From positions 1 to 39,867 of the forward strand of contig CAJLCG010000006.1 in assembly GCA_905205085.1 (NCBI GenBank): DNA of 39,867 nt. Reading direction: 5' to 3'. Made by a program: the position numbers and the translations under genes. This stretch comes from an uncultured Oscillospiraceae bacterium. GTDB taxonomy: Bacteria > Bacillota > Clostridia > Oscillospirales > Oscillospiraceae. A model generated the notes under the pieces. That model searched no databases. It was not told the origin of the DNA and saw only the letters and a list, made by a program, of their open reading frames with translations. Below are positions 24,410 through 39,657 of this stretch, piece after piece (the stretch's first letter is position 1; every line of letters begins with the position of its first letter).

Positions 24410-24538
24410 TCAAAAGTCCTCCTCTTCTGCATAACCAAAGGGGCACGAATCGCAGCTCAAAGGTCCGTCTTCATCCACTTCTTCACACGGACGGGACTCT
24501 GGCCCATCCATGGGGAATCCACACTTGTATATGATCAT
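24410..24538 (-). CDS. Small cysteine-containing protein (42 aa)
   Basis: The start at 24538 overlaps the upstream stop in an ATGA arrangement, favouring MIIYKCGFPMDGPESRPCEE over longer forms. Cys residues occur as C6, C18 and a final C-D-S-C-P-F-G pair, so metal binding is possible. It is the second of three short Cys-rich genes in a row. Function unknown. Confidence 0.55.
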   Translation of the reverse strand: MIIYKCGFPMDGPESRPCEEVDEDGPLSCDSCPFGYAEEEDF

Positions 24539-26452: not shown

Positions 26453-26465
26453 CCCATCCGCCCCC

Positions 26466-26819
26466 TTAGAAGAAGTCGGACAGGTTCAGCAGCAGCCCGC
26501 CCCGGTCCGGCTCTGTCTCCGCCGGCTCCAGCTGAATGGCCATCTGGAACTTGACCTTGGCTCCGTCAAAGTAGAAGGACGCCGCCCGGCGGTAGGCCGC
26601 TAAATCGGAGATGGAACCGCCCACCCCATTGGCTACCGCTTTCATGCAATCCGGAAAACTGCCGCCCTGGGCCACCGCCTGGGCAAACTCCTCATTCTGC
26701 CGGCAGAAATCCAGCAGGGCGTCCCGGACTGCGGAACTCATCGCCCGCTCCTTTTGTCCTTTGACCTCCTTGCACTCCTTGTTCAGCCGTTCCTTGGCCT
26801 GCTCATACCATACGCTCAT
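26466..26819 (-). CDS. PcfK / AcrIIA9-like protein
   Basis: The ATG at 26819 (MSVWYEQAKERLNKECKEVK) overlaps the upstream stop by ATGA. The 117-residue product has the pattern CRQNEEFAQAVAQGGSFPDC-MKAV, then ISDLAAYRRAASFYFDGA and a final LLLNLSDFF, which agrees with what I recall of PcfK-like proteins. That family includes the Cas9 inhibitor AcrIIA9. The PcfJ-like gene is adjacent. A link to CRISPR inhibition is inference from memory only; a general PcfK role in DNA metabolism is the alternative. Confidence 0.7.
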   Translation of the reverse strand: MSVWYEQAKERLNKECKEVKGQKERAMSSAVRDALLDFCRQNEEFAQAVAQGGSFPDCMKAVANGVGGSISDLAAYRRAASFYFDGAKVKFQMAIQLEPAETEPDRGGLLLNLSDFF

Positions 26820-27790
26820 TCCGCACACCTCCCAATGACCTCGGACAAGGCCCGCAGGGCCTTCTCTACCCCCTGGGCGGCAGTGGGGTCGGTCCGGCCC
26901 CGCAGCTTGAGGAGTATCCCCCGCATTTTGTTGGCCTGGTCCTGGGCTTGCTGGAATAACACCTGGAAGGTGGCCATGTCCTCGTCGGAGGCCAGCACCG
27001 CGTTCTTCCGAGCCCGTTCAGATTCTTGGAGTTGGGTTTTGACCTGGGCCAGATCGACCTGGGCCTCCTTGGCCTGGGCCTCGGCTTTTTTCTGCCGCTC
27101 CTTGGCCTTGTCCAACTTGGCCTGCATCTCGGCTATGGCTTCCGCCCGGGCCTTTTCCAGGGCCTCCGGGTCGGCCACCGTCTCCACAGCTACATCCACC
27201 GGCCGGGTTTTCAGCTCGGCCAGCTCCTCTTCCAGCTTGGCGGCATCTTGTAAAGCCCGCTCCCGATCTTCCCGCGCACCGGCCAAACGCGCGTTGAGCA
27301 AAGTCATATCCTCGGCCATCTTAACCCGGGCCTGCTCAGCTGTGCTGGCCTCCGCCTTGGCCGCCTCGGCGGCCTTGCGAGCTTCGTCCCGCTCCTTAAT
27401 CGCCTGCTCCAACTGCCGAGTGGTCATGTCAATGACGTTGTTGTCCTCCATGAACCGCTCCCGTTCCTCTGCCGGCAAAGCCAACAGAGTCAAGGCTTTG
27501 GTGGCTCCCAAATCCGACAGCGCTGTCGGATTTGACCACTCTCTTGCCAACCTCATAAACCGCTGCGCAGCTCGCTCTGAAAACTCCCCCCGATCGGCCA
27601 GCCAGTCCTTCCACTCCCCATGGGGCAGCATCTCTTTTGCCTCAATGAGGCACCGGCCAATGGTGAGGATGGCCTCTCCCCCGGCCCGCTTTGCGTCCAA
27701 TATTTCCCCAGTGATGGCCTCAATCGTGCGGTTTTCGGCGGGTTTAGCCATAGTCTGGGCGATGATCCGCCCCAAATCCGGCTTACTCAT
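26816..27790 (-). CDS. DUF3102-type coiled-coil protein, partner of ParA
   Basis: The protein has 324 residues. Residues 20-100 carry the DUF3102 pattern (LDAKRAGGEAILTIGRCLIE then AKEMLPHGEWKDWLA and SERAAQRFMRLA). A helix-turn-helix-like stretch (LSDLGATKALTLLALPAEER) follows, then a long Ala/Glu/Lys coiled coil (about 125-280). It overlaps parA by eight bases. The pair resembles partition systems in which this protein would bind DNA in place of ParB; that is inferred. Confidence 0.82.
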   Translation of the reverse strand: MSKPDLGRIIAQTMAKPAENRTIEAITGEILDAKRAGGEAILTIGRCLIEAKEMLPHGEWKDWLADRGEFSERAAQRFMRLAREWSNPTALSDLGATKALTLLALPAEERERFMEDNNVIDMTTRQLEQAIKERDEARKAAEAAKAEASTAEQARVKMAEDMTLLNARLAGAREDRERALQDAAKLEEELAELKTRPVDVAVETVADPEALEKARAEAIAEMQAKLDKAKERQKKAEAQAKEAQVDLAQVKTQLQESERARKNAVLASDEDMATFQVLFQQAQDQANKMRGILLKLRGRTDPTAAQGVEKALRALSEVIGRCAE

Positions 27791-28556
27791 GGACCATCCC
27801 CTCCTTCTCCAGCAGTTCAGCCACCCACGCCCGGTAGTCCCGAGCGGCAGAACACCAGGGGCTCCAGGCCTGGACAGCCATCCCGGCCCAGGAGCTCTCC
27901 GGCACCTTGTCGGTGCGTCGGATCACGGTATTGTAGACGGGCACTCGTCCGTCCTCACGGAGATAGGCAGCTGCATCCTCTACCACCGGAGAACGGTGCC
28001 ACTGGTTTACCAGCACCCCGGCCACGCGAATCTCAGGACGGATATATCGCAGGCTGTCAATCTGGACCATCAGGTCACCCACGCCGGTGGCCGAGCAGGC
28101 ATCAGACAAAACTGGTATAATCACAGCATCACTGGCCAGGATGGCGGAAATACAGGCCACAGACAAGTTTGGAGGGCAGTCCACGATTATCACATCGTAG
28201 GCATCGTCCTCAGCAATAGCATCGCGCATACTCATCATTGCGCTGTATCTCAGAGCTGCCTCATCCTTCTCCAGTTCCATTGCCCACAGATCCTCCGAGG
28301 CGGGCAGCACGTCCAGCCCAACCACGTCGGTATGTACCACAAGCTCTTCATAGCTGCTGTAATAACCACGCAGCAGCGCCCCAAGGCCCGCATATTCTCC
28401 CTTGGGCAGGAGGATGCCGGTGGCATTGGCCTGCCCGTCGGCATCGATGAGCAGCACCCGCATGCGGCAGCTGGTAGCCAACACATAGGCCAGATTCACG
28501 GCGGTGGTAGTCTTTCCTACTCCGCCCTTTCGATTAACAATGGCAAATGTTCTCAC
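27783..28556 (-). CDS. parA: ParA-family partition ATPase
   Basis: Translation begins with GTG at 28556 (MRTFAIVNRKGGVGKTTTAV) after AAAGGAGTTATCACC. The 257-residue product has the deviant Walker A K-G-G-V-G-K-T-T (10-17), LLIDADGQANAT (34-45) and VIIVDCPPNL as Walker B. The type is a small ParA without an N-terminal HTH. In a prophage it may serve segregation of a plasmid-like state or act in another way. The start codon lies inside a motif repeated upstream of the initiator gene. Confidence 0.93.
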   Translation of the reverse strand: MRTFAIVNRKGGVGKTTTAVNLAYVLATSCRMRVLLIDADGQANATGILLPKGEYAGLGALLRGYYSSYEELVVHTDVVGLDVLPASEDLWAMELEKDEAALRYSAMMSMRDAIAEDDAYDVIIVDCPPNLSVACISAILASDAVIIPVLSDACSATGVGDLMVQIDSLRYIRPEIRVAGVLVNQWHRSPVVEDAAAYLREDGRVPVYNTVIRRTDKVPESSWAGMAVQAWSPWCSAARDYRAWVAELLEKEGMVHE

Positions 28557-28570
28557 GGTGATAACTCCTT

Positions 28571-28768
28571 TCAGTTCTTCGGTATGATTTGAAATGCCTC
28601 CCGGATGGTGCGGCCTCCCACCTGGCCTTCGGCCACAAAGTAGCGCCGGCGCGGGTGGATGTAAACGACATGTCCCTTCACAGCTCCGGTCCGCTCCAGG
28701 ATACTTTCAGAGCCCTGACCATGGACCCAGCAGTCCGGCAGGAAAGTAATCGGGTCCCCCACTCTCAC
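28571..28768 (-). CDS. Small phage protein (65 aa), SH3-barrel-like
   Basis: Translation begins with GTG at 28768, overlapping the dnaB stop. The product begins MRVGDPITFLPDCWVHGQGS and contains GHVVYIHPRRRYFVAEGQVG, a beta-barrel-like pattern. It ends in REAFQIIPKN. The small proteins found between helicase and parA in related phages are unnamed. Function unknown. Confidence 0.72.
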   Translation of the reverse strand: MRVGDPITFLPDCWVHGQGSESILERTGAVKGHVVYIHPRRRYFVAEGQVGGRTIREAFQIIPKN

Positions 28769-30081
28769 GGCACGTCACCCCCTTCCTCAAATGGGATCGG
28801 TTCACTGTCCGCTAAAGAGGTGAACGTAATCTGCTTGTATTCCGGCTCCCGCCGCACCGGCTTGTCCACCACGCTGGGCTTAAAGCTCTGGTGCGCGCCG
28901 TCAAAGACCAGGTATACGATGCCTCCCGCCTCACCGTCCTTGTTCTTGGCAATCTTGAGACAGCGGCGGCTGCGGGGGTTGTTGGGCTCTTCCTTGTACA
29001 GCAGCAACACGCCGTCGGCGTCCTGCTCGATCTGGCCAGACTGGCGCAGGGAGTGTAACCCCGGGGCCTTCTCGTTTTCTCCGCCCTTCTGGGGTCTGGA
29101 GAGCTGGGACAGAGCGCACACGGTGATGCCGGTGGTCTGGGCCATCACGTGCAGGTCCTTGGAGATCTGGGTCACCTGCTCCACGTCGCTGCGCCGCCGG
29201 TCATCTGGGGCAATAAGCTGCAAATAGTCGATGTAGATGATCTCGTACCGTCTCGCCAGGGCCAGGGCCTGAATATCTACCACAGAGAGGCCGCCCGCCT
29301 GGATGATCTCCAGCTTCCGGCCTACCATGGCACTGCTGCGGTACTCAATTTCCCTCCAGTCCGCGTCCTGGAGGGTGTGCTCTTTGATCCGGCCGAAGTC
29401 TACCCCGCACACGGCGGTGACGGTGCGGTCCATGATCTTGTCCGGGTGAGTCTCTAGGGAGAAGTAGCCCACCCGCTTGTCCTTGGCCTGAGTCCAGGCC
29501 AACTGGAGAGACAGGGCCGTCTTGCCCGCGCTGGGATAGCCCCCCAGCACGATAAAGTCCCCGTACTCACACCGGAAGGTGCCATCCACCTTCTCCATCC
29601 CCCAGGGAATCAAGTTGGCGGGTTGGCGCTGGCGCTCGTAGAAGTTTAAAAGGCCCTGCTCCATGCTCACGATCTTCACCCCGGGCCGGTCTCCCAAGAG
29701 CCTTTGCTGCTGCTGAGCAATAACCTGGGCATTCTCAAGGGATACGCAGCTCACCATGCTGGATGCCAGGCTCTTGAGCCGCAGGAGTTTGGATTGCTCC
29801 ACCAGGATATCCAGGTAGATCTCCACGTTGGCAGAGGTTGGTGTCTCGTCCATCAGTTCCACCAGCATGGTTACATACTGGGGGCCGACCCGATCCTTGA
29901 CCGTTACCGGGTCAATAGGCTTTCCGGCCTGAAAAAGGTCCCGGCAGGCCTTGAACAAAGTCCGGTACTCTCCGGTGTAGTCCTCCTCCCTGGTTCGGTG
30001 AAGGACGGTGCCGGCTACTTTGTCCCCGTCCAGCAGCATGGAGCCGATCACCGAGCGCTGCGCGTCATAGTATTGACTCAT
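28765..30081 (-). CDS. dnaB: Replicative DNA helicase (DnaB-like)
   Basis: The protein has 438 residues. The N-terminal helical domain begins MSQYYDAQRSVIGSMLLDGD. The RecA-like domain has Walker A GGYPSAGKTA (180-189), the sensor segment GYFSLETHPDKIMDR and Walker B IIYIDYLQLIAPD, followed by ALSQLSRP and QIEQDADGVLLLYKEE near the end. It unwinds the phage origin after loading by the initiator encoded just upstream. The ATG at 30081 overlaps that gene's stop. Confidence 0.95.
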   Translation of the reverse strand: MSQYYDAQRSVIGSMLLDGDKVAGTVLHRTREEDYTGEYRTLFKACRDLFQAGKPIDPVTVKDRVGPQYVTMLVELMDETPTSANVEIYLDILVEQSKLLRLKSLASSMVSCVSLENAQVIAQQQQRLLGDRPGVKIVSMEQGLLNFYERQRQPANLIPWGMEKVDGTFRCEYGDFIVLGGYPSAGKTALSLQLAWTQAKDKRVGYFSLETHPDKIMDRTVTAVCGVDFGRIKEHTLQDADWREIEYRSSAMVGRKLEIIQAGGLSVVDIQALALARRYEIIYIDYLQLIAPDDRRRSDVEQVTQISKDLHVMAQTTGITVCALSQLSRPQKGGENEKAPGLHSLRQSGQIEQDADGVLLLYKEEPNNPRSRRCLKIAKNKDGEAGGIVYLVFDGAHQSFKPSVVDKPVRREPEYKQITFTSLADSEPIPFEEGGDVP

Positions 30082-30869
30082 AGCAGGTAGGTCCCCTCCT
30101 CCTCCAGTACCCGGGCTGACTTACCCTGGGCGGGCTGGGTACGGGTTGGCAGAGGCTTGTCCTCATCCTCCCAGCGGCGGTTGTTGAGCCAGGTGGAGGC
30201 ATACGGGATCCCAATGCCACGCTGCCACTCCTCGCTTGCCATCTGACGCTTGAGGGCACGGGCCATTACCACCAGCAGCGCGTCGTCCGGCTTCAGCTTG
30301 TCCCAGGCTTTGATGGCCGCCTGTTTGGACCGGCCGCATGGATACGCAGCCCAGAAGTCCGCAAACCGCTCCGGCTTCCAGTCCGGAGCCTCTTTCGGGG
30401 CATTGGACCGCTTGCCGCGCTTTTTCGCTGGCTCGTCCCCCTTGGGGGGATTATAGGGGGGATATTCTACTGTACTATTACTTGTATTATTCTCTCCGCC
30501 ATTTTTGGCAGGAGGTCCCCCCGATTTTGGCGGGACCCTCCCCCCATTTTTGGCGGGAGGGGGTACAGCGGATCCAGGGGGGCCACAAATCCAGATTTTC
30601 CGGCAAAGGACTTCCTGGCTCTCGGGGTCCCGCTCTACCTCTATATGGATGTGTCCCCGATCTCTAAGCTGCTTGAGCAGATCCTCCACGGTCCGCTTAG
30701 CAATGCCAAGGGTATCGGCCAGCCGGGCGTTCCAGGCCCAGCAGTAGCCCTCAGCCTGGGCCAAGGCGGACAGTTCTCCATATAGTAGCTTGGCATTGGG
30801 CCTCAGGGTGTGGTCATCCCGCACCCGGGCCGGGATCACGGAGTATAAACTCCGGTATATCTCCCCCAT
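30078..30869 (-). CDS. HTH replication initiator / helicase loader-type protein
   Basis: The protein has 263 residues. Residues 15-75 form a winged HTH (LTPN-like: LRPNAKLLYGELSALAQAEG then AWNARLADTLGIAKRTVEDL). The middle (95-150) is a Pro/Gly/Lys linker in which short units such as PPAKNGG and PPKSGG repeat; these are encoded by the origin iterons. The C-terminal part (PDWKPERFADFWAAYPCGRS, then AAIKAWDKLKPDD) is typical of phage replisome organisers. RBS AAGAGGTGATTTGAG precedes the start. It binds the origin within its own gene, as lambda O does. Confidence 0.88.
   Translation of the reverse strand: MGEIYRSLYSVIPARVRDDHTLRPNAKLLYGELSALAQAEGYCWAWNARLADTLGIAKRTVEDLLKQLRDRGHIHIEVERDPESQEVLCRKIWICGPPGSAVPPPAKNGGRVPPKSGGPPAKNGGENNTSNSTVEYPPYNPPKGDEPAKKRGKRSNAPKEAPDWKPERFADFWAAYPCGRSKQAAIKAWDKLKPDDALLVVMARALKRQMASEEWQRGIGIPYASTWLNNRRWEDEDKPLPTRTQPAQGKSARVLEEEGTYLL
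30446..30570 (-). repeat. Probable replication origin: three iterons next to an AT-rich stretch
   Basis: Within the initiator gene, three copies of a motif with core (A/G)TTTTTGGC(A/G)GG occur with GGC at 30507-30509, 30529-30531 and 30552-30554, 22 and 23 bases apart. Each copy has C-runs before and G-runs after the A/T core, giving dyad symmetry (GCC-A/T-GGC). Beside them, 30462-30494 is an AT-rich run in a GC-rich gene, a good unwinding element. Origins inside initiator genes are well known (lambda, P22). Repeats and AT run are seen directly; origin function is inferred. Confidence 0.75.
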
Positions 30870-30887
30870 CTCAAATCACCTCTTGTG

Positions 30888-30931
30888 TTTCTCACGGTGG
30901 TGTGCTATCATACAAGTGTTCTCACGGTGGG
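30888..30931 (-). promoter_or_regulatory. Direct repeat pair upstream of the initiator gene
   Basis: On the plus strand, TTCTCACGGTG(G) occurs twice, near 30889-30899 and 30919-30930, 31 bases apart, in the short gap before the initiator start. A third copy, GTTCTCACGGTG near 28551-28562, overlaps the GTG start and ribosome site of parA. This suggests a shared regulator, perhaps ParA/DUF3102 or an XRE protein. The copies are seen; the binding is inferred. Confidence 0.5.
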
Positions 30932-30975
30932 CTCCGCCCATCGGCCCGGGGGTCGGCAAAGCCCTCGGGCATTTT

Positions 30976-31101
30976 TTACGCCATGACGGCCGCCCAGTAG
31001 GTCAAACCGGCCAGCACTGCCGCTACTAGGGACAACCCGCAAACAAACCACTCCAGCGCCTCGTACAATACGGGGTGCTTTTTTCTTATCCTCTCCCACA
31101 T
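30976..31101 (-). CDS. Small single-span membrane protein (41 aa)
   Basis: The ATG at 31101 lies four bases after the stop of the AbrB-like gene. The product begins with the basic MWERIRKKHPVLYEALEWFV and continues with one hydrophobic span (CGLSLVAAVLAGLTYWAAVM). The positive N-terminus suggests a cytoplasmic N-terminus. A conflicting frame over the same bases has no such character. Function unknown; small membrane proteins near immunity regions often block superinfection. Confidence 0.6.
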   Translation of the reverse strand: MWERIRKKHPVLYEALEWFVCGLSLVAAVLAGLTYWAAVMA

Positions 31102-31104
31102 GCA

Positions 31105-31359
31105 TCAGTCCTCCAGGATGTCCAGCAGCTGATTCATCTGGTAGATCACCTCGACCGGAGCTCCCTCCTGGATGGCCTCCTCCCGCAGGCGGCGCACCCG
31201 CTCAGACAGCGGCAGTTCCTGCTGCTTACGAAGAAAAATACCATCATCGGTCCCGATGATTTCCATAGGGGTACCTGGGCCCATTTCCAGCTGCGTCCGC
31301 ATCTCTTTGGGTATTACTACTCTACCCAAATTGTCCATACGGCGAACGATTGTCGTCAT
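31105..31359 (-). CDS. AbrB/SpoVT-like transcription regulator
   Basis: The ATG at 31359 follows AGGAGGATTACTT. The 84-residue product opens with the swapped-hairpin AbrB motif (MTTIVRRMDNLGRVVIPKEM, then RTQLEMGPGTPMEIIGTDDG). The C-terminal part (LPLSERVRRLREEAI) is helical. It likely binds DNA as a dimer or tetramer and controls early genes. It forms part of the leftward early operon. Confidence 0.9.
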   Translation of the reverse strand: MTTIVRRMDNLGRVVIPKEMRTQLEMGPGTPMEIIGTDDGIFLRKQQELPLSERVRRLREEAIQEGAPVEVIYQMNQLLDILED

Positions 31360-31423
31360 AAGTAATCCTCCTATTCTGTGCCCCACATCTGCGGAGCCTT
31401 TTTCTTATGTACACATATCCAGC

Positions 31424-31768
31424 TCACCAGATCCCGGCCCGGATCATCAGCTGGGTGGCCACCTCGATGACCCGCTTACGGCCCTCGGCCTTCTCCTCCT
31501 CGGTGAAGGGTACCTCCCGATGCAGCTCATAGCCCAGAGCCACCCCCATCTTTGGCCCACGGTCTGTGGTCATGGAGCGATCCACGTCTAGTTCCTGGTC
31601 CCCCAGGATCAGCAGGTGGCGGCCTCGCCAATCCCGCAGCACTTTCTGCCGTTGCTGGCCGTTGCAGATCTCCGTGCGGTCCTTCACGATGATCTCCACT
31701 GGATATCCATCCAGTTCTTTGCGGTAACAGGTTTTGTTCTGATGCTCAAACTGTTCTACTCGCCCCAT
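31424..31768 (-). CDS. Hypothetical phage protein
   Basis: The protein has 114 residues, begins MGRVEQFEHQNKTCYRKELD and has GAGAGGAGGTGACGTC before its ATG. It has a beta-rich first half (YPVEIIVKDRTEICNGQQRQ) and a helical end (EEEKAEGRKRVIEVATQLMI). I do not recognise it. It lies between XRE and AbrB-like regulators, so an early role is likely. Confidence 0.72.
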   Translation of the reverse strand: MGRVEQFEHQNKTCYRKELDGYPVEIIVKDRTEICNGQQRQKVLRDWRGRHLLILGDQELDVDRSMTTDRGPKMGVALGYELHREVPFTEEEKAEGRKRVIEVATQLMIRAGIW

Positions 31769-31815
31769 GACGTCACCTCCTCTCTGAACGTATGGGCTGC
31801 GGCTCGTCCGATATG

Positions 31816-32265
31816 TCAGTCCCCGTGCTCACAGAAGCGCAGCTCCATGCCGCACTGGATCAGCTCCTTCAGGTCTTCTACGATGGCGTCATACTCTGCC
31901 CGCTCTTCCTCGTCAATCTGGCCATCCTCAGCGATTTCCAGCAGACGCTCCACCGAGTGGTTCTTGGAAAAACGGGTAAGTCGATTACACAACCGCACCA
32001 CCGACTCCATCAGGGTACGGGGCTGGATCACGGGGATGATGCTTGATGCCAGCTCGTCATGCAGGTTGACGTGCTGCACGGCCAGTCGCTGGGCGTCGTA
32101 GCAGATCACCATCCGTGAGACTACATGATTGGGCGGAATGCGCTGGCCGGTTTCATAGGCACGTACACTCTCCACGCTGATACTCAGCTGCTCGGCTGCC
32201 GCTTCCTGGGTGATACCGGCATTCCGCCGAGCTATTTTGTAGATATTCCGGTATTCCTCCGGCAT
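31816..32265 (-). CDS. XRE-family regulator
   Basis: The 149-residue product has an N-terminal HTH (NIYKIARRNAGITQEAAAEQ, then LSISVESVRAYETGQRIPP, about 6-45). The C-terminal part (LMESVVRLCNRLTRFSKNHS and the acidic IDEEERAEYDAIVEDLKEL) looks like a DUF-type helical domain found in Firmicute phage regulators. RBS AAGGAGGGAGTTCCC precedes the start. It is the second leftward gene after the control region. Confidence 0.88.
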   Translation of the reverse strand: MPEEYRNIYKIARRNAGITQEAAAEQLSISVESVRAYETGQRIPPNHVVSRMVICYDAQRLAVQHVNLHDELASSIIPVIQPRTLMESVVRLCNRLTRFSKNHSVERLLEIAEDGQIDEEERAEYDAIVEDLKELIQCGMELRFCEHGD

Positions 32266-32296
32266 GGGAACTCCCTCCTTCTAGGGGTAGAATATA

Positions 32297-32509
32297 TTAA
32301 GCAGAGGTACGGCCAGGGGACTCCCGGCCATACAGCGCGTCGATGGAGCAGCCGAACAGATCGGCTAACGCAGGGAGCTTGTCTGCGCTGGGATTGGCTT
32401 GTCCATTGATCCACTTAGAAACAGCATTGCTCGATACATTCAGTGCTGCCGCTACCTGAACTCCCTGAATTCCACGCAGCTCCATCAGTTCTCTGATTTT
32501 CAAATCCAT
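32297..32509 (-). CDS. XRE-family Cro-like regulator
   Basis: The ATG at 32509 (MDLKIRELMELRGIQGVQVA) follows AAAGGGGGA. The 70-residue product is a single HTH domain (VAAALNVSSNAVSKWINGQA, then LADLFGCSIDALYG) with no effector domain. As the first leftward gene, facing the plus-strand genes across the operator region, it fits a Cro-type role. The rest of the leftward early operon follows it. Confidence 0.88.
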   Translation of the reverse strand: MDLKIRELMELRGIQGVQVAAALNVSSNAVSKWINGQANPSADKLPALADLFGCSIDALYGRESPGRTSA

Positions 32510-32528
32510 TCCCCCTTTCACTTTGGCC

Positions 32529-32557
32529 TTGTTCCCAACTGTTCAGTATGGTATGAT
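32529..32557 (+). promoter_or_regulatory. Plus-strand promoter in the divergent control region
   Basis: -35 TTGTTC (32529-32534), a 17-base spacer and -10 TATGAT (32552-32557) precede the plus-strand membrane gene at 32616. The site lies in the 106-base gap between the Cro-like gene and that gene, so it shares regulatory DNA with the leftward early promoter. Confidence 0.6.
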
Positions 32558-32569
32558 TTAGCCATAGGT

Positions 32570-32582
32570 TGACTGTCAGTCA
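32570..32582. promoter_or_regulatory. Palindromic operator candidate
   Basis: The perfect palindrome TGACTG T CAGTCA lies in the divergent control region, just after the plus-strand promoter. On the minus strand it overlaps a CTGACA that could serve as a leftward -35. It is likely bound by one of the XRE regulators encoded nearby. Confidence 0.55.
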
Positions 32583-32615
32583 CATTGAGCGCAGCTGGAT
32601 AAAGGACGTGATCGA

Positions 32616-33053
32616 ATGCCTGCTGAACCTGTTTCCACTGGAGTAGATCTCTCGCTGGTCATAGCTGTGGCCGCACTCGTCTTATCCGCTTTGTCTCCCT
32701 TGATTACCTCCTTGATAGGTGGAATATTCCGCCTTAAAGAAAAATCACTGGATATACATGAGCGGCAAAACGATCAAGAAACAGAGTTCTATTACCGCCA
32801 TCGTGCCGAGGTAATTGAGCAGTACATCAAAGCAGTTGGACAAGTAATTGAACTAGACACACCCAAAAATGAAGAAACCTTTGGGTCCACTATGGGAGAG
32901 GTCTATCTGTATGTAGATAAGTCTCTATGGCCTCTCTTGGACAGCATCACAGACTACATCCATACGGGTAGAAATGCTTCTGCAAAGGAGGACTTTATCA
33001 AACTTTGCAAAGCCTTATCCTCTAAAAATATCCGTACCAAAGATCAAAGCTAG
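32616..33053 (+). CDS. Membrane-anchored phage protein
   Basis: The 145-residue product has one N-terminal membrane segment (about 11-36, DLSLVIAVAALVLSALSPLI) and a long cytoplasmic or external helical part (RLKEKSLDIHERQNDQETEF and on). It is preceded by AAAGGACGTGATCGA and a good promoter and lies in the immunity region on the strand of the repressor. Superinfection exclusion or another lysogen-expressed role is plausible. I do not recognise the family. Confidence 0.75.
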   Translation: MPAEPVSTGVDLSLVIAVAALVLSALSPLITSLIGGIFRLKEKSLDIHERQNDQETEFYYRHRAEVIEQYIKAVGQVIELDTPKNEETFGSTMGEVYLYVDKSLWPLLDSITDYIHTGRNASAKEDFIKLCKALSSKNIRTKDQS

Positions 33054-33185
33054 CCCCAGCATACCGATCCCCCCAAAACTCCAAACCAAAGGACGTGTAA
33101 TTTCACCCCCTTTGGAGACAAGTTTATATACGGGGATGCAGGTGCCACATAACACAAATAGTACGAATACACAAAATAACTTCAC
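33015..33185 (-). CDS. Possible small two-span membrane protein (56 aa)
   Basis: A GTG at 33185 opens a frame to 33015 with two hydrophobic runs (LFCVFVLFVLCGTCIPVYKL and FGGIGMLGLALIFG). It overlaps the end of the plus-strand gene at 32616-33053 tail to tail. The ribosome site is weak (TGGAAGC). It could be real, since this gap has no other gene, but chance is possible. Apart from this the 33054-33330 gap holds only the operator repeats below. Confidence 0.3.
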   Translation of the reverse strand: MKLFCVFVLFVLCGTCIPVYKLVSKGGEITRPLVWSFGGIGMLGLALIFGTDIFRG

Positions 33186-33247
33186 GCTTCCATCTGTCGT
33201 TATTCCTGTGGTTTCTTGTCAACTTCTGGTTAAATCATAAATCCGAA

Positions 33248-33298
33248 ATTTCGTATTGTCAACGCAATTTTAGTATTATTTCGTATTTTATACGAAAT
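33248..33298. promoter_or_regulatory. Operator repeats upstream of the repressor gene
   Basis: A perfect inverted repeat ATTTCGTAT-TTT-ATACGAAAT occupies 33278-33298. The same nine-base half-site ATTTCGTAT also occurs at 33248-33256, inside the palindrome CGAAATTTCG (33244-33253). The sites lie just upstream of the XRE gene at 33331, so autoregulation by that protein is likely. The repeats are seen; the binding protein is inferred. Confidence 0.72.
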
Positions 33299-33330
33299 AT
33301 CGAATTCTTTTTATATAGGAGTGATGTCGC

Positions 33331-33666
33331 TTGGATGCCTCCACTTTTGTACAAAATGTAAAATACCTATGTTTAAAAAAGGGCATTAAACCAACTAACG
33401 CCTGTAAAGATGCTGGAGTTGGGGGAAGCTTTTTGAGCGACATCTTGAACCGTGGTAGCACCCCATCAGTTGCCAAAGTACAGATGTTGGCTAACTACTT
33501 GGGTGTAACCACCAGTGAACTTTTAGGAGAAACAAAAAAGCCCACCGTCCAAGACGATGGGCTTACGGAAGCTGAGCAGGCACTTATGGATTTGTTTCGT
33601 CAGCTGACGCCGGATCAGCAGGACATGGTGATCCGTATGGTGCAGGCGGCTGCTGACAAGCAATAA
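33331..33666 (+). CDS. XRE-family phage repressor (CI-like)
   Basis: Translation begins with TTG at 33331 after AGGAGTGATGTCGC; no ATG is available in frame. The 111-residue product has an N-terminal HTH (about 15-63: KKGIKPTNACKDAGVGGSFL then LNRGSTPSVAKVQMLANYLG) and a C-terminal helical part (LTEAEQALMDLFRQLTPDQQ) seen in short Firmicute phage repressors. No peptidase domain for RecA-driven cleavage is present. Its operators lie just upstream. Confidence 0.9.
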   Translation: MDASTFVQNVKYLCLKKGIKPTNACKDAGVGGSFLSDILNRGSTPSVAKVQMLANYLGVTTSELLGETKKPTVQDDGLTEAEQALMDLFRQLTPDQQDMVIRMVQAAADKQ

Positions 33667-33751
33667 TAGCCTGGGCGGCTATGACAAGCAGCGCAGCAGG
33701 ATCTTTGCTGCCGCGGATGATAGATAACAGTGTCTCTTCCCTGCTGGTCAT
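33584..33751 (-). CDS. Small protein antisense to the repressor gene end
   Basis: The ATG at 33751 (MTSREETLLSIIRGSKDPAA) follows AAAAGGGGGCGGCAAT. The 55-residue product has a hydrophobic centre (LLVIAAQAIIACQQ) and a Pro-rich end. Its last 83 bases are complementary to the 3' end of the repressor gene at 33331. It is well initiated but short, so its reality is uncertain. Confidence 0.45.
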   Translation of the reverse strand: MTSREETLLSIIRGSKDPAALLVIAAQAIIACQQPPAPYGSPCPADPASADETNP

Positions 33752-33778
33752 ATTGCCGCCCCCTTTTATGTTGTGGTA

Positions 33779-33807
33779 TTGCAATTATAGAACATATGTA
33801 CTATAAT
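33779..33807 (+). promoter_or_regulatory. Promoter of the lipoprotein cargo operon, with a LexA-like box
   Basis: -35 TTGCAA (33779-33784), a 17-base spacer and a perfect -10 TATAAT (33802-33807) make a strong promoter. The spacer holds TAGAACATATGTACTA (33788-33803), a near-perfect palindrome one base from the Gram-positive LexA core GAAC-N4-GTTC. SOS control is possible. Confidence 0.75.
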
Positions 33808-33827
33808 TTCAATAGAGCAGAAAAAAA

Positions 33828-33848
33828 TTGTGTCCAAGTTGGACACAA
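33828..33848 (+). promoter_or_regulatory. Inverted repeat operator or leader hairpin
   Basis: A perfect inverted repeat with arms TTGTGTCCA and TGGACACAA and spacer AGT lies between the promoter and the AGGAG site of the lipoprotein gene. It could be an operator or a leader hairpin next to the ribosome site. Its core recurs at 992-1010 and 14165-14183. Confidence 0.7.
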
Positions 33849-33862
33849 TAGGAGTGTTCATC

Positions 33863-34507
33863 ATGAAACCTAAGGTTTTCAGTATGCTATTACTAACAGC
33901 ATGCCTTTTATCTGCTTGTGGACAATCGGTCGATAAAGAAAGTTGGACCACCGCTTATGATGTTGTCGGTACGGAACACACACAACTCTGGGATTTAAAA
34001 GCTGATGATTTTTTGGCTCAAATCAATAGTGCAAGTCCAGAAGATATGCAACTTTCATATCTAAAAGAGTATGATCCCAGCAGTATGAACTGTATGCTCA
34101 CTCAAAACGGTGAGACATGGAAGATAAATCTAAGTGTTTTTCCTTCTTCTGAAGCAGACACACTTACTTATAAAGACGAAGCAAATGCTTCTGATTGGAT
34201 AAACAATATCGGGAAGGTTGAGCTAAGTTTATACTCGGATAGTGAAGAAACCTCAAAGGAAAACGGAACATACGTGCGGGAAATTATTTCAATATTTACC
34301 CCTGGAGCAGAAGAAATCGTAGAAAATGCCATTGGTTTATATGGCGAACCAGAAAAAGAAGCTGTCATTTCTGAAGGCGTATACAGGGTGTCAATTGATA
34401 GTGTCGCATATACGTATATTCCAAATCAAAACAAATTTACAGCTCAGCCACATATTGAGTCATGGCCTGAAGAAAATATAACTCCTTCTGTGATTAAGCC
34501 AGATTGA
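33863..34507 (+). CDS. Predicted lipoprotein (cargo gene)
   Basis: The ATG at 33863 follows AGGAGTGTTCATC. The product has 214 residues with a lipoprotein signal peptide (MKPKVFSMLLLTACLLSACG; lipobox L-S-A-C). The mature part is hydrophilic (YDVVGTEHTQLWDLKADDFL, then a domain around 110-180) and matches nothing I recognise. The gene is AT-richer than its neighbours, which suggests separate origin. It leads a plus-strand operon with a second lipoprotein and a PH-like protein, typical of lysogenic conversion cargo. Confidence 0.85.
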   Translation: MKPKVFSMLLLTACLLSACGQSVDKESWTTAYDVVGTEHTQLWDLKADDFLAQINSASPEDMQLSYLKEYDPSSMNCMLTQNGETWKINLSVFPSSEADTLTYKDEANASDWINNIGKVELSLYSDSEETSKENGTYVREIISIFTPGAEEIVENAIGLYGEPEKEAVISEGVYRVSIDSVAYTYIPNQNKFTAQPHIESWPEENITPSVIKPD

Positions 34508-34524
34508 CTGAAAGGAAGATAACC

Positions 34525-35247
34525 ATGAAAAAGCTCTTTGCGTTCTGGATTTCCTTGACCCTTGCCGTTTCTCTGGTCGCTTGCTCTGGAGACGCAGGCC
34601 ACTCTGCCACTGAATCCAACAGCGATATATCCGCCTCTCTCTCCTCTGTCTCTATCTCTGAGCCAGAAACCCCCGCTATCACCTCCCTCTCCCTGGACTG
34701 TGACCAGTCTATCGAGATGGACGTGAAGGACACCAAGTCCATCCCTGTTCTGGTGCTGGAGGAAGGTGCTGATGCCACGGATGTGGAGTTCACCAGCTCT
34801 GCCCCCGACGTTCTTACCTTCACCCCGCAGGACGACAGCGGCACTTTGATAGGCGTAGCCACCCCAAAGGCTGAGGGTACCGCAGAGATCTCCGTCTCTG
34901 CCGGCGACGTCAAGAGCCAGATTGTCACCATCACTGTCATCGACTCGGAGCGCATCGCCGCCGAGGAGGCTGCCAAGAAAGCCGCGGAAGAAGAAGCAGC
35001 TCGCAAGGCCGCCGAGGAGGCAGCAGCTCAGAAAGCGGCAGAAGAGGCTGCTGCTCAGCAGGCCGCCCAGCAGCAACAGCAGCAGAACCAGCAGTCTCAG
35101 TCCAATGGCCGCACCGTCTATATCACCCCCACCGGCAAACGGTATCACTATGACAACCATTGTAACGACGGCACCTATATCCCATCCACGCTGGCAGAGT
35201 CTCAGGCCAAAGGTCTGACTCCCTGCAAGAAGTGCGCGGGAGGCTAG
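34525..35247 (+). CDS. Ig-like lipoprotein with C-terminal metal-binding motif
   Basis: The ATG at 34525 follows AAAGGAAGATAACC. The 240-residue product has a lipoprotein signal (MKKLFAFWISLTLAVSLVAC), a BIG2-like domain (about 50-143: ITSLSLDCDQSIEMDVKDTK then EGTAEISVSAGD), a low-complexity Ala/Glu/Gln/Lys linker (about 150-195) and a C-terminal motif VYITPTGKRYHYDNHC...GLTPCKKC (about 200-240). The last motif, with one His-x4-Cys and a C-x2-C pair, recurs at the end of secreted Firmicute proteins. Cell-surface role inferred. Confidence 0.88.
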   Translation: MKKLFAFWISLTLAVSLVACSGDAGHSATESNSDISASLSSVSISEPETPAITSLSLDCDQSIEMDVKDTKSIPVLVLEEGADATDVEFTSSAPDVLTFTPQDDSGTLIGVATPKAEGTAEISVSAGDVKSQIVTITVIDSERIAAEEAAKKAAEEEAARKAAEEAAAQKAAEEAAAQQAAQQQQQQNQQSQSNGRTVYITPTGKRYHYDNHCNDGTYIPSTLAESQAKGLTPCKKCAGG

Positions 35248-35273
35248 TAAAATATTTAGAAGGAGACTGTACC

Positions 35274-35648
35274 ATGATTGACTTTAAAAACGCTTCTTAT
35301 TTAAAACTCAAACCCGTCCCCAACAGCGATTTTTCCGGCATGATTCAGCCAATGTTTGTTCCTGGAGAAGAGATCATCCAATCTTTCCGTGGCATCCGCG
35401 ACGGCGTAGTCTTTACCAACAAGCGCATTTTTGCAATCAATGTCCAAGGCATCACTGGTAAGAAAAAGGACTTTACCAGCCTTCCGTATAGCAAGATCCA
35501 GGCGTTCTCTGTTGAAACTGCCGGCGTGATTGATCTGGACAGCGAGCTGGAGCTCTGGTTCTCCGGCATGGGCCTGGCCAAATTTGAATTTGTCTCTAAT
35601 GCAGATGTCTCCGGTATCTGCCGCATGATCAGCGAAAAAGTTCTCTGA
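35274..35648 (+). CDS. PH-like domain protein
   Basis: The ATG at 35274 (MIDFKNASYLKLKPVPNSDF) follows AGAAGGAGACTGTACC. The 124-residue product has the short bacterial PH pattern: GEEIIQSFRGIRDGVVFTNK, then IFAINVQGITGKKKDFTSLP and a final helix. No signal or membrane segment is present. It ends the cargo operon just before a strong terminator. Confidence 0.82.
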   Translation: MIDFKNASYLKLKPVPNSDFSGMIQPMFVPGEEIIQSFRGIRDGVVFTNKRIFAINVQGITGKKKDFTSLPYSKIQAFSVETAGVIDLDSELELWFSGMGLAKFEFVSNADVSGICRMISEKVL

Positions 35649-35674
35649 TCTCTGAGCCCTACATCAAGTCAACA

Positions 35675-35703
35675 AAGAAGCCGCCCCATCCGGGCGGCTT
35701 CTT
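35675..35703 (+). terminator. Rho-independent terminator after the cargo operon
   Basis: A perfect 12-base stem (AAGAAGCCGCCC at 35675-35686 and GGGCGGCTTCTT at 35692-35703) with loop CATCC lies 26 bases after the PH-like gene. The T content is partly in the stem. It separates the cargo operon from the integrase gene. Confidence 0.85.
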
Positions 35704-35717
35704 AAAACCCCAGCATT

Positions 35718-35731
35718 CGAACATTCGTTTT
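35718..35731 (+). promoter_or_regulatory. LexA-like box before the integrase gene
   Basis: CGAACATTCGTTTT matches 12 of 14 positions of the Gram-positive LexA consensus CGAAC-RNRY-GTTYG, as I recall it. It lies 20 bases before the integrase start, between terminator and ribosome site. A clear promoter is not seen in this 47-base gap. Confidence 0.5.
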
Positions 35732-35750
35732 CTTTCGACAGGAGGCCGCC

Positions 35751-37271
35751 ATGGATCACAACCGAAGCGCCGACCTCACCGGCCTGGACGCCGCCGTCTA
35801 CCTGCGCAAATCCCGCATGGAGGAGGGCCTAGCCACTGATGAGGTGCTGGCTAAGCACCAGAAGACCCTCTATGACTACGCTGCCGCCCACGGAATCCAC
35901 ATCCTGGCGGAGTACCCCGAGGTAGTCAGCGGTGAGTCTCTCTATGCCCGGCCCCAAATGCTCCGGCTCCTTCAGGACGTGGAGGATGGACACTACGACG
36001 CGGTGCTGTGCATGGATCTGGACCGGCTTTCCCGCGGCCGCATGAAGGATCAGGGCATCATCCTGGACGCCTTTCGGGAGTCCGGAACTCTTATCATCAC
36101 CCCGGAAAAGGTCTACAACCTCTCCGACGAGATCGATGAGGAGTACGCCGAGCTGAAGACCTTCATCTCCCGCCGAGAGTACAAGATCATCACCAAGCGT
36201 CTGCGCCGGGGACTCCAGATGTCCATCCAGGAGGGCTGCTACGTGGCCAACGCCCCATACGGCTATCACAAGACCGTGGTGGACCGCAAGCCCACCCTGG
36301 AGATCTACGAGCCGGAGGCAAAGTTTGTGCGCATGATGTTCCAGCTCTACGCCCAAGGGTATGGCTGCGTCGCCGTGGCCCGGCACGTCAACGCCCTGGG
36401 GGCCCGCCCCCACCGCTCCCCGGAGTTCTCCCGCAACAGCGTGGCCAAAATCCTCCGCAACCCCACCTATGTGGGCAAGATTGTCTGGAATCAGAAGAAA
36501 CACATCCGTAAGGGGGCCAAGGGGAACCCTAAGCACATCACCATCTACCAGCCCCGGGATCAGTGGACCATCACCGATGGCCTCCACCCCGCCATCGTGG
36601 ATCGGGAACTCTTTGACCAGGTCCAGGCCATTATGGATGGCCGCTACCAGCCGGCCAAGAACGACGGCACGGTGCGTAGCCCCCTGGCTGGGCTGGTAAA
36701 GTGCGTCAACTGCGGGCAGAACATGCAGCGCATGGTGATGAAACAGAAAGCCTACTTGCTGTGTATGCGGCCCGGCTGCTGCTCCTCCACCCAGTTTGAC
36801 CTGGTGGAGGACCAGATTCTGGACTACCTGGAGGACACCTTGGCCAAGCTGACTATGGACCAGCCGCAGCACATCCCCGGCCGGAACACCGACGTATTGG
36901 AGACCACCCTAGCTGCTGTGAAGAACGAGCTGGCCGGTACCGACCGGCAGAAGAACCGGCTGTATGAGCTACTGGAGTTGGGCGAGTACGACCTTCCCCT
37001 CTTTCGGGAGCGTATGGCCGCAGTGAAGGAGAAGCGGGCTGCGCTGGAAAAGAAAGAGGCGGAGCTGGAGCGCTCCCTGCGGGAAGTCCAATGCTCCAAC
37101 CCCACCCTGCTGGCGGAACGGATCCGGGCAGTGTTGGATGCCTACGGCACCGCCGATCCCGCCGGCAAAAACGCCCTTTTGAAGTCAGTGCTGGACACCG
37201 TCTGGTACCAGAAGGAGAAGAAAACCAAGCCCTCCGACTTCCAGCTGACCTTCACACTCCGCGCCCTGTGA
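35751..37271 (+). CDS. Large serine recombinase (integrase)
   Basis: The protein has 506 residues. The catalytic domain (about 1-145) starts AAVYLRKSRMEEGLATDEVL with the nucleophile Ser in RKSR and DAVLCMDLDRLSRGRMKDQG as the second motif. The recombinase domain (about 150-290) contains APYGYHKTV, RNSVAKILRNPTYVGKIVWN and HPAIVDRELFDQVQ. A zinc ribbon (CVNCGQNMQRM ... CMRPGC, about 323-346) and a coiled coil (about 380-450) complete the family layout. RBS GACAGGAGGCCGCC precedes the start. It acts at att sites just downstream of its gene. Confidence 0.96.
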   Translation: MDHNRSADLTGLDAAVYLRKSRMEEGLATDEVLAKHQKTLYDYAAAHGIHILAEYPEVVSGESLYARPQMLRLLQDVEDGHYDAVLCMDLDRLSRGRMKDQGIILDAFRESGTLIITPEKVYNLSDEIDEEYAELKTFISRREYKIITKRLRRGLQMSIQEGCYVANAPYGYHKTVVDRKPTLEIYEPEAKFVRMMFQLYAQGYGCVAVARHVNALGARPHRSPEFSRNSVAKILRNPTYVGKIVWNQKKHIRKGAKGNPKHITIYQPRDQWTITDGLHPAIVDRELFDQVQAIMDGRYQPAKNDGTVRSPLAGLVKCVNCGQNMQRMVMKQKAYLLCMRPGCCSSTQFDLVEDQILDYLEDTLAKLTMDQPQHIPGRNTDVLETTLAAVKNELAGTDRQKNRLYELLELGEYDLPLFRERMAAVKEKRAALEKKEAELERSLREVQCSNPTLLAERIRAVLDAYGTADPAGKNALLKSVLDTVWYQKEKKTKPSDFQLTFTLRAL

Positions 37272-37291
37272 GCCCGGTTTTTCTTTTTCCC

Positions 37292-37417
37292 TCAAAGTAT
37301 TAAAGACGCTATATCTTCCTCTTTGCAGGAATCAAAAATTTTCTTCGTGTGTATGCACACGGCTTCCCGAATGCGGCGCTCGTCGCTCACGGGGCCGGGC
37401 ACGACCTTTTCAGGCAT
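37292..37417 (-). pseudogene. N-terminal fragment of a host gene split by the prophage
   Basis: A strong TAGGAGGGATTCCAT site precedes the ATG at 37417. The frame reads MPEKVVPGPVSDERRIREAV, then CIHTKKIFDSCKEEDIASLI-L and stops at 37292-37294. The first ~31-35 codons look like the start of a conserved Clostridia protein with the motif I-H-T-K-K-x-(Y/F)-D-S-C-R-D-K-D-C (recalled, not searched). The last codons do not match that pattern and lie in phage DNA next to the integrase. The remainder of the gene should lie beyond the left end of the prophage. Confidence 0.72.
37308..37330. other. Right prophage-host junction (att site) candidate
   Basis: The codons for D-S-C-K-E-E-D of the host fragment cover 37313-37333, and the change from host to phage sequence is expected there, about 40-60 bases after the integrase stop. 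Large serine recombinases keep attP beside their own gene, in line with this placement. The precise crossover needs the left junction. Confidence 0.6.
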
Positions 37418-37536
37418 ATGGAATCCCTCCTAAGCTCTGGATGGCCCCGGCAGGGCCCTGGCAGGCCGCGCCGGGTACACCTCATACTATGACCGGGAAT
37501 TTTTTTGGTGCGGGCTTCCCCATCGGAAAAGAGCCC

Positions 37537-37565: not shown

Positions 37566-37600
37566 ATTTTTGTATGAGCCTTTGGAAGGAGGAGGACCCC

Positions 37601-38161
37601 ATGTCCCGGACCGGATTTATTCAAAATGAACTGGATCTCAAGCTATTGGTGCTGTATATTATGGACCGCGCGGTGGCTCCCATCACCTTTTTGCAGCTGC
37701 TGGATCTGGCCCTGTGTGATGCAGGGGTGGACTACTTCTCCCTCACCGAGGCAGTCAATCACCTCACCGAGACCGAACACCTCTCCCTGAACGGGGAGCT
37801 CTACTCCATCACCGAAAAGGGTCGGCGCAACATCGAGATCTGCCAGAGCAGCCTGCCCTACTCGGTGCGCCTGCGGTGCGACGAAAATCTGGTCAAGCTC
37901 AACGACGCCCTCATGCGCCAGGCCCAGGTACAGACCGGCCTTCAGCCCAATGAGGACGGCACCTGCACCGTCCGTCTCTACCTGGCCGACGAGGCGGGAC
38001 CCCTTATGGAGCTCAAGCTCATTTCCCCCTCCCTGGCCCAGGGTCAGACCCTCACCAGCAAATTTCAGCAGTCCCCTGAGGCCATCTACCACGAGATTAT
38101 GGCCCTGCTGGTGCGCCACTCCCAGGAGGAATCTGATTCATCTTCGGAACAAGAAGCGTAA
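37601..38161 (+). CDS. DUF4364 family protein (host)
   Basis: The ATG at 37601 (MSRTGFIQNELDLKLLVLYI) follows GGAGGAGGACCCC. The 186-residue product has a winged-helix-like N-terminal part (ITFLQLLDLALCDAGVDYFS then TETEHLSLNGELYSITEKGR) and a mixed C-terminal domain. Length and pattern match DUF4364 proteins, common in Clostridia chromosomes and thought to be regulators. It marks the host side of the junction. Confidence 0.88.
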   Translation: MSRTGFIQNELDLKLLVLYIMDRAVAPITFLQLLDLALCDAGVDYFSLTEAVNHLTETEHLSLNGELYSITEKGRRNIEICQSSLPYSVRLRCDENLVKLNDALMRQAQVQTGLQPNEDGTCTVRLYLADEAGPLMELKLISPSLAQGQTLTSKFQQSPEAIYHEIMALLVRHSQEESDSSSEQEA

Positions 38162-38232: not shown

Positions 38233-39657
38233 TCATTTCAGGGCAGAGACATAATCTGTCATCCTCTCTTGATCTTGAAGCTGCAATTCCAAACGATAGA
38301 CCGGCTGATAAAAGCCCTTCGTATCCGCTTTCCACTCCAACACGCAGGAAAGAACCGTTACTTGAGGTACTTGGTAATACTCCAGTATTTCCCCCTGGAA
38401 ACTGTGGCCGTCGTATAGCTCCTGGACGGCTTGCGCAGGGCTTAAAATGGATTCTTCCCTGCATGGTAAAAGCGTGACAATACGATAATCGATTTGGTCC
38501 AGCTCTGTTTTTCCGTCTTGATAGTGCAGATCACATTGTAATGTACCGTACCATTGTTTTTCTGCTCCGGGAACCAATTTTACTTCTGCACTCGCTGTAA
38601 AAAACTCATTTTTGTCTGGAGATTGGATGGTAAACTGTATGTTCTGGGGAACTTCTATCCCCAACTGATGCAGAGCGTCCAATACATCCTCTGACCGGAT
38701 TTCTTCCGGGTGTACGTCAAATACAGGGGTCGTCTCCCTGCCAAGGTTATACTCCCAGGTACCGTCCAATCGATTCACAAAAAGGAAATCTCCGCTGGAG
38801 TGGTTGCCAAACCAGATGGTATCATCATAGTAATAGATATCTTCAACGGAAAATCCTACTTTTTGGGCAAACTGAGTTCCAAATTGCTCACATGCCGCCT
38901 GATCCAACCGTCCCACCTCATATACCCAGGCTGTGACCGGTTTATCCTGCGGGGTAAATCCCAACTCCCATCGCACATTTTTTAGGTTTGCCGTAACTGC
39001 AGGCGCATCCTGCAAATTACCATACGGTTTTACTGCATAGCCCACAAAAATACCTGCAAGCACAAGAATCAAGGCCATTGGCACGGAGAGATAGACAAGG
39101 CTTTGGCCTTTCCAGCCGTTTTTCCGCTCCAGCACACTCAAAACCAGCATGGCGATGCTCCATCCCACCATCGTTCCCAGGGTATTGGTAAACAAATCGT
39201 CTACATCAAACATTCCCCGTGCAGTGGCCAGCTGTCCCAACTCAATAGCAAGAGAGAATCCAAATCCCATCAGCAGTACGGCATACCATTTTCGAAACAC
39301 GCGGGACAGCAGCGGAAGCAAAATCCCCAAAGGAACAAACAGCGCGATATTCAGCAGCACATTGAGCCACGCGCGCAGGGCAAACTGATTCCAGGCCTCT
39401 CTCCATGCCAGAAACAAGTGAAAATTCCACTGCCGGGCTCCAGGCTCACCTCGAAACAACGTAACAAACAAGGTCAATCCAAGCCAGCTAATCAGCAGCA
39501 ACAGGACAATCGCCCGCCGCCACGGAAAGTGCCATCCCTTTTTCCGCGAAATCCCCCACCCAGCCGCTAAAATCAACACACAAAGTAAGACTGCCGGTAC
39601 AACAAACCAGATTCCTCGCTGAAGTAAGTAGAGAATATACTGAATAAAATCGTTCAT
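38233..39657 (-). CDS. VanZ-like membrane protein with extracytoplasmic domain (host)
   Basis: The protein has 474 residues. The N-terminal part (about 1-205) has four or five membrane segments and the VanZ pattern (LNVLLNIALFVPLGILLPLL, FSLAIELGQL, DVDDLFTNTLGTMVGW). Another membrane segment at about 190-210 leads to a soluble domain of about 260 residues that is not usual for VanZ (beta-rich, with TAWVYEVGRL and WYGTLQCDLHYQDG). The start at 39657 follows GGAGGTCCGCC. VanZ in the narrow sense gives low teicoplanin resistance; most family members have other, unknown roles. Confidence 0.88.
   Translation of the reverse strand: MNDFIQYILYLLQRGIWFVVPAVLLCVLILAAGWGISRKKGWHFPWRRAIVLLLLISWLGLTLFVTLFRGEPGARQWNFHLFLAWREAWNQFALRAWLNVLLNIALFVPLGILLPLLSRVFRKWYAVLLMGFGFSLAIELGQLATARGMFDVDDLFTNTLGTMVGWSIAMLVLSVLERKNGWKGQSLVYLSVPMALILVLAGIFVGYAVKPYGNLQDAPAVTANLKNVRWELGFTPQDKPVTAWVYEVGRLDQAACEQFGTQFAQKVGFSVEDIYYYDDTIWFGNHSSGDFLFVNRLDGTWEYNLGRETTPVFDVHPEEIRSEDVLDALHQLGIEVPQNIQFTIQSPDKNEFFTASAEVKLVPGAEKQWYGTLQCDLHYQDGKTELDQIDYRIVTLLPCREESILSPAQAVQELYDGHSFQGEILEYYQVPQVTVLSCVLEWKADTKGFYQPVYRLELQLQDQERMTDYVSALK

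Follow-up and report, generated by a model that had tools for sequence, protein, structure and literature searches.

Sporulation gene rearrangement by mobile elements has been described for a few genes in Bacillus and Clostridium (PMC5025042, PMC5595907, PMC10747680, PMC4191935). In the case of phage SP-beta, the recombinase gene sprA is reported to be expressed in growth, and the directionality factor SprB to be produced both in the mother cell and in response to mitomycin C (PMC4191935). In the case of the Clostridioides difficile skin element, the recombinase is described as constitutive, with excision restricted by a mother-cell directionality factor (PMC5025042).

Here we describe a locus of an uncultured Oscillospiraceae bacterium, contained in a stretch of 39,867 nt that was analysed as a whole and is referred to below as the window. 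A search of the literature, at the level of titles and abstract beginnings, returned no account of the gene concerned or of split genes in Oscillospiraceae; a nameless gene is hard to search for.

The split gene and its junctions

An earlier note on this DNA had placed a prophage in a host coding gene, with an N-terminal fragment left beside a serine recombinase, had read the first 31-35 codons of the fragment as the start of a conserved Clostridia protein, and had located its stop in phage DNA about 20 bases from the integrase stop. Results of our analysis bear out all three points. The 41-residue frame (Table 1), preceded by the ribosome-binding site AGGAGGGATTCCAT-ATG, reads MPEKVVPGPVSDERRIREAVCIHTKKIFDSCKEEDIASLIL. 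Its match to the host gene, which encodes a Clostridia protein of about 280 residues, covers the first 32 codons and extends two bases into codon 33; beyond this point lies the phage arm GGAAGATATAGCGTCTTTAATA, closely resembling the arm at the same junction in six relatives (L002, L003, L023, L040, L042, and L044). The recombinase frame ends at 37271, that is 20 bases from the stop of the fragment and 48 bases from the crossover core. When the intact homologue of Clostridiales bacterium CCNA10 (L004:8969-9817:-, 282 aa) was compared to the window by tblastn, the N-terminal piece was matched with an E value of 6e-16, and no remainder of the gene was found in the window, all other matches having E values of 1.6 or worse. 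The window stops inside the prophage and contains one junction; the left prophage end and the attL belonging to it are beyond the window. The repetition of the same-codon cut in relatives excludes chance, and the splitting of a conserved host gene by a prophage at 37292-37417 is confirmed.

Where whole, the gene encodes a conserved, unnamed protein. A strict N-terminal motif finds it at 39 of 46 DUF4364 loci and at none of the other seven (L014, L019, L026, L033, L039, L046, and L048). At 30 of the 39 loci the frame exceeds 240 residues, so the phage-free relatives carry a full-length frame and no short one; five loci are cut at the codon of the window (L003, L023, L040, L042, and L044), two near residue 153 (L006 and L015), and in two the gene runs off the contig end. 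The protein of L004 shares 71-91% identity with the 29 other intact ones. Neither Pfam nor NCBIfam has a name for the family, and no functional annotation or clear fold match was obtained; one query gave 2,685 relatives, and among the 120 matches listed all those with a source name are hypothetical proteins. Homologues thus do extend beyond the 41-residue piece, as the proposal of an interrupted gene had implied.

The other end of the element was sought in relatives with the same junction. The remainder of the gene, from about residue 32 to the end, was found at the far end of the element in G001, G003, G004, G005, and G006, and an order-wide search contributed G081 and G125; in these seven same-cut relatives the element precisely splits the coding gene and the other piece is kept. 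The two pieces are 37-44 kb apart on a single contig in G005, G081, and G125, and one contig also carries both of them in G031 and G035. In the sense of the gene, and with minor differences among genomes, attR reads ..TGCAAR-GA-GGAAGATATAGCG.. and attL reads ..CGCTATATCTTCC-GA-YAARGAC..; the phage arms are mutually reverse complementary, which makes attP a palindrome around GA. When attL and attR were joined in silico at the 2-bp GA core, an uninterrupted frame of 275-279 residues resulted in 7/7 same-cut relatives, which all share one type of phage arm, the computation being confined to these seven as the attL of the window lies outside it. Five C-terminal parts were read from stop to stop; in these, no start codon follows the phage stop ahead of the joint, and the gene in its split state is therefore expected to yield no product. 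The same codon is cut in G031 and G088 next to another type of phage arm: their N-terminal parts, which are weak matches (E 0.003-0.004), end with ..YDSCS-GA, and their C-terminal parts begin with GA-TAAAGAC. In IMG/VR, the attP pattern had no match and the attR pattern had one, in the record of L002 itself, which ends at the N-terminal part and contains no C-terminal part.

Window 134-514 was tried as a candidate for the gene remainder and rejected: it matches DNA just 3' of the C-terminal part of G001, and it is a different, phage-type gene. In G001 (L090 16481-17500, L147), this similar gene directly follows the C-terminal part, and by eye the region after that part looks like a tail- and lysis-type remnant followed by host DNA, in which spoIIGA and sigE are among the genes lying a few kb further along.

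Table 1. Features of the window
Feature	Position	Strand	Basis or remark
Prophage carrying contractile tail genes (left end outside the window)	1..37319	.	PHROGs
Tail sheath	11580-12659		PHROGs
Major head protein	14879-16072		PHROGs
Portal	16741-18036		PHROGs
Terminase	18284-20098		PHROGs
DnaB-like helicase	28765-30081		PHROGs
Transcriptional regulator	31816-32265		PHROGs
LexA-type box GAACATTCGTTT	35719..35730	+	20 bases upstream of the recombinase start; the only GAACNNNNGTTY site of the window
Large serine recombinase, 506 aa, presumed integrase/excisionase	35751..37271	+	PF00239, PF07508; phrog_95 integrase E 2e-98
N-terminal fragment of the split gene	37292..37417	-	32 host codons + 9 phage-arm codons
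attR phage arm	37300..37319	.	Half of palindromic attP CGCTATATCTTCC-GA-GGAAGATATAGCG, assembled from sequences of relatives
attR crossover dinucleotide, GA in gene sense	37320..37321	-	GA common to attR and attL in seven relatives; in-frame rejoining
Predicted promoter of sigma-K type for the split gene, CACC - N15 - CATAGTAT	37484..37510	-	Pattern in 40/40 upstream regions
Host DUF4364 gene in divergent orientation to the split gene	37574..38161	+	PF14277 E 3e-38
Host gene with VanZ-like domain, neighbour outside the switch	38233..39657	-	PF04892 E 4e-22

The prophage part of the window also includes baseplate genes. A blastn search with window 34000-39867 matched nine phage records, SP-beta not being among them. 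On the host side, the DUF4364 protein is most similar, within the species genome collection, to that of L003, another uncultured Oscillospiraceae bacterium (95% identity over 185 residues), and is 75% identical to that of L004. ARAGORN detected no tRNA in the window, no DUF4364 was found in IMG/VR, and the window flank had no match among plasmids. A bacterial PH-domain protein is encoded on the phage upstream of the recombinase gene, at 35232-35648(+); this DNA shares about 70% identity with a Lactococcus phage ul36 gene.

Control of the recombinase and selection on the gene halves

The recombinase gene of the window is preceded by a site of the GAACNNNNGTTY type, which we take to be a LexA box. 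The same letters recur in G007 about 100 bp ahead of lexA, and four of eight lexA loci have a site of this kind. A LexA-type site is also located 5' of the recombinase genes in L001 and L003, and none was seen by eye before those of L089, L094, and L096. No sigma-E or sigma-K site was found upstream of the recombinase gene in the window or in relatives. As the recombinase gene has a LexA-type box, the timing of excision in sporulation is probably set by a separate directionality factor. A 114-aa phage ORF at 31424-31768(-), with a sigma-E-like site just upstream and also present in G001, is a weak candidate for this factor.

Taken together, the sequences make it likely that the locus is a switch of the skin and SP-beta type, in which a temperate phage with contractile tail genes would be integrated by its large serine recombinase at the 2-bp GA core in codon 33 and would be excised in the mother cell, thereby restoring a late spore gene. 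This gene would be silent in growing cells, and its insertional splitting would therefore be without cost to them. Within the mother cell, the recombinase and a phage-coded directionality factor would excise the phage and join the halves, sigma-K would then transcribe the whole gene, the mother cell would die, and the prophage would stay in the spore chromosome. The recombinase gene looks LexA-controlled, hence DNA damage would also be expected to cause excision, for lytic growth, as with SP-beta.

The prophage could instead have merely inactivated a dispensable gene, as in an ordinary gene-disrupting lysogeny, with excision on lytic induction only and with the halves decaying. We regard this as unlikely. 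The LexA-type box at the recombinase gene is what damage-driven induction would predict, about half of the spoIVA-positive genomes of a class-wide sample have no match to the gene model (39/80, gaps in MAGs being possible), and the median omega over all pairs is higher in the split C-terminal parts (0.29; nine parts, without G081 and G125, 29 of 36 pairs usable) than in 29 intact copies (0.20). However, the startless C-terminal halves remain open, the in-frame rejoining is obtained in all seven same-cut relatives, open pieces are also left by elements inserted at other positions of the gene, and in close pairs purifying selection is strong. The C-terminal parts of G081 and G125 show 0 non-synonymous vs. 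37 synonymous differences (563 non-synonymous sites), those of G031 and G088 show 0 and 33, respectively, and omega is 0.05 for G005/G006, 0.12 for G004/G005, 0.16 for G004/G006, and 0.27 for G003/G005. In close pairs, the downstream half is thus under purifying selection despite the split. If the gene were never reassembled, dN would not be expected to stay at zero.

Comparison of synonymous divergence gives some indication of the age of the insertions. In the pair G081/G125, the dS of the recombinase gene (0.23) is close to that of the C-terminal part (0.26), which suggests an ancestral insertion, probably older than the two species. The corresponding values for G005/G006 are 1.98 vs. 0.38; this mismatch points to different phages, which may have arrived separately. 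Between the window and G001, the dS is 0.49 for the recombinase gene and 0.58 for the DUF4364 gene. The DNA of G001 matches window 21567-37513 in blocks of 77-97% identity, and the structural half of the window has no G001 match except 134-514. The DNA of G031 and G088 is 89% identical over 5.6 kb covering the C-terminal part and the recombinase gene.

Indications of a sporulation role

The earlier note had left the link of the gene to sporulation open; it now gains support, at the level of sequence, from a sigma-K-type promoter and from an association with spoIVA. In C. difficile, sigma-E and sigma-K promoters share the -10 element and differ in the -35 element, which is ATA for sigma-E and AC for sigma-K (PMC3789822). 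The motif GCACC-N-CATAAGAT, or a near form of it, is common to the regions upstream of the gene. The pattern AC-N15/18-CATANNWT, which, like the sigma-E form used for comparison, was composed after viewing the same sequences, occurs in 40/40 upstream regions, those of the 39 loci plus that of the window (0.1 on average in shuffled sequences), and in 41 of 58 additional copies that the order-wide and class-wide searches yielded (1.7 on average in shuffled sequences, 6 at most); the sigma-E form occurs in 0/40 and 7/58 (3.3 on average in shuffled sequences), respectively. An ACC-CATACAAT site is located about 80 bp upstream of the dipicolinate-synthase-A-like gene at three of ten loci (L168, L170, and L171), the genes used for this promoter check scoring below the family cut-off.

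The gene and spoIVA tend to occur together. In the order sample of 147 genomes, 117 have both, 20 spoIVA only, 3 the gene only, and 7 neither (Fisher p 2.8e-4). In the class sample of 108 genomes, where the gene was scored as present at E <= 1e-20, the respective numbers are 41, 39, 3, and 25 (Fisher p 1.2e-4), the gene being present in 3 of the 28 spoIVA-negative genomes; both tests treat genomes as independent of kinship, and genomes outside the match lists were entered by inference. From these data we infer that the gene probably belongs to the late sporulation genes that sigma-K controls in the mother cell, a reading with good support at the level of sequence, and that its product probably serves the spore coat or surface.

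One may argue that the gene is not a sporulation gene at all and that elements land in it for its conserved sequence, with spontaneous excision restoring it frequently enough within the population. The case for sporulation is made by a promoter motif and a phyletic association, and purifying selection and restorability would also be compatible with the landing-site explanation. Nevertheless, we find this explanation quite improbable, given the presence of the sigma-K-type promoter vs. the lack of the sigma-E type in all 40 upstream regions, and given that the other split genes encountered are spoIVA and a dpaA-like gene.

Recurrent insertion and comparison with known systems

The gene was found in two or more pieces in 27 genomes. 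The cut is at codon 33 (site 1) in G001, G003, G004, G005, G006, G031, G035, G081, G088, G098, G125, and G141, at about residue 153 (site 2) in G007, G008, G021, G041, and G115, and at about residue 77 in G040. The class search added eight genomes by coordinates (G170, G184, G196, G220, G221, G225, G244, and G247), with a recombinase gene between the pieces in G184, G220, and G225; in several of the eight the pieces are on separate contigs and may reflect contig breaks. The recombinases associated with site 1 are 70-74% identical to that of the window in G004, G005, G006, G081, and G125, 47% identical in G031, G088, and G098, and 42% identical in G011 and G141. Those at other positions of the gene (G021, G040, G041, and G115) share 25-35% identity with it, and the second recombinase of G011, located by the residue-72 end, shares 37%.

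Several of the individual loci show peculiarities. G011 (G011:C2:66552-97162; L081, L082) has three pieces of the gene, next to which two serine recombinases are encoded, and, by eye, flagellar-type genes lie between the pieces; the middle piece is reversed, and restoration would therefore need inversion as well as excision. In G021 (L076 and L077 for G021 and G115), the inserted element is of 3.75 kb, non-phage, and encodes a recombinase, NagA, and NagB, and G115 has the same layout, so that amino-sugar catabolism genes are housed within a probable spore gene. The element of G184 encodes a recombinase, a protein of pyridine-nucleotide-disulphide/sulphite-reductase type, and FecCD, that of G040 a ketoacyl synthase and an AMP-binding enzyme, and that of G220 a GAF protein and a short recombinase. 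G010 has a second, paralogous N-terminus (MAEYIEPGP..; L068, G010:C19:23614-23733) with the same-codon cut and a similar phage arm, in addition to the usual copy, of which at least 120 N-terminal residues are present up to the contig end. In G008 (L015 5842), housekeeping-looking genes, MnmG-like by eye, follow within about 0.5 kb of the N-terminal part cut near residue 153, and the C-terminal part is on another contig, which suggests a rearrangement or a misjoined MAG. An assembly or binning artefact fusing phage DNA to the end of a host gene, for which the number of MAGs among the relatives and this possible misjoin or rearrangement in G008 might speak, has a negligible probability as an explanation of the split, as the same junction is base-exact in independent assemblies, including the non-MAG-labelled Colidextribacter sp. 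OB.20 (L040), and both pieces share a single contig in the five genomes named above.

Two further genes were encountered in pieces. The spoIVA gene is cut near model residue 400-410 in five genomes: G131 (G131:C14:34901-41279, L101), G206 (L099, L100), G171 (L102, L103), G011, and G233; G025 and G257, with two spoIVA matches each, were left out of this count. A serine recombinase gene is located by the C-terminal spoIVA piece in 3/3 inspected genomes (G131, G206, and G171). In G131, the recombinase frame continues straight into the C-terminal domain of SpoIVA (641 aa), and a 632-aa frame of G011 suggests the same fusion. In G151 (G151:C7:326253-339452; L177, L178), about 12 kb separate the two pieces of a dipicolinate-synthase-A-like gene.

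The presence of pieces of the gene in 27 genomes of cultured and uncultured Clostridia, with recombinases of several degrees of relatedness, marks it as a probable late spore gene. On balance, we are inclined to regard this unnamed, class-wide gene as a recurrent docking site for unrelated serine-recombinase elements, phages as well as small islands with metabolic genes, which would use several positions and in one genome would have brought two recombinases to a single copy. Many gut Clostridia would then assemble this gene, and some of them spoIVA too, by excision in a dying cell, which would offer mobile elements a cost-free and conserved home. If this is true, prophage-gated spore genes would be common among gut bacteria. 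The elements also provide natural sets of attB, attP, and recombinase.

The vfbin element in spoVFB and the yin element in yabG are, as is proposed for the window phage, prophage-like elements in sporulation genes, although the genes and hosts differ from those described here (PMC10747680). The gin element of B. cereus interrupts the mother-cell gene gerE, is not a phage and has serine recombinases, and in this it resembles the small non-phage elements of the relatives; however, gin is of 28.6 kb and resides in a regulator gene, while the small elements are of 1.3-7.7 kb, carry metabolic genes and occupy positions in their gene that differ from the insertion point of the window phage (PMC5595907). 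The skin element in sigK of B. subtilis and C. difficile interrupts a mother-cell gene and allows restoration of the frame, as is proposed for our locus, and likewise has a serine recombinase, but it splits the sigma factor itself, whereas here a predicted sigma-K target is split (PMC5025042). SP-beta in spsM of B. subtilis is similar as a temperate phage with a large serine recombinase and in-frame rejoining, located in a late spore-envelope gene, as our gene probably is too, and in both cases damage and development are the expected triggers (PMC4191935). The two differ in the gene and the host class, probably in the recombinase, and in the place of control: in SP-beta it is sprB that responds to mitomycin C and to sporulation, and here the LexA-type box is at the recombinase gene (PMC4191935). 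Systems of this kind are already known; the literature searched, at the level of titles and abstract beginnings, gave no description of this gene, of such a system in this host group, or of a single gene used repeatedly by different elements.
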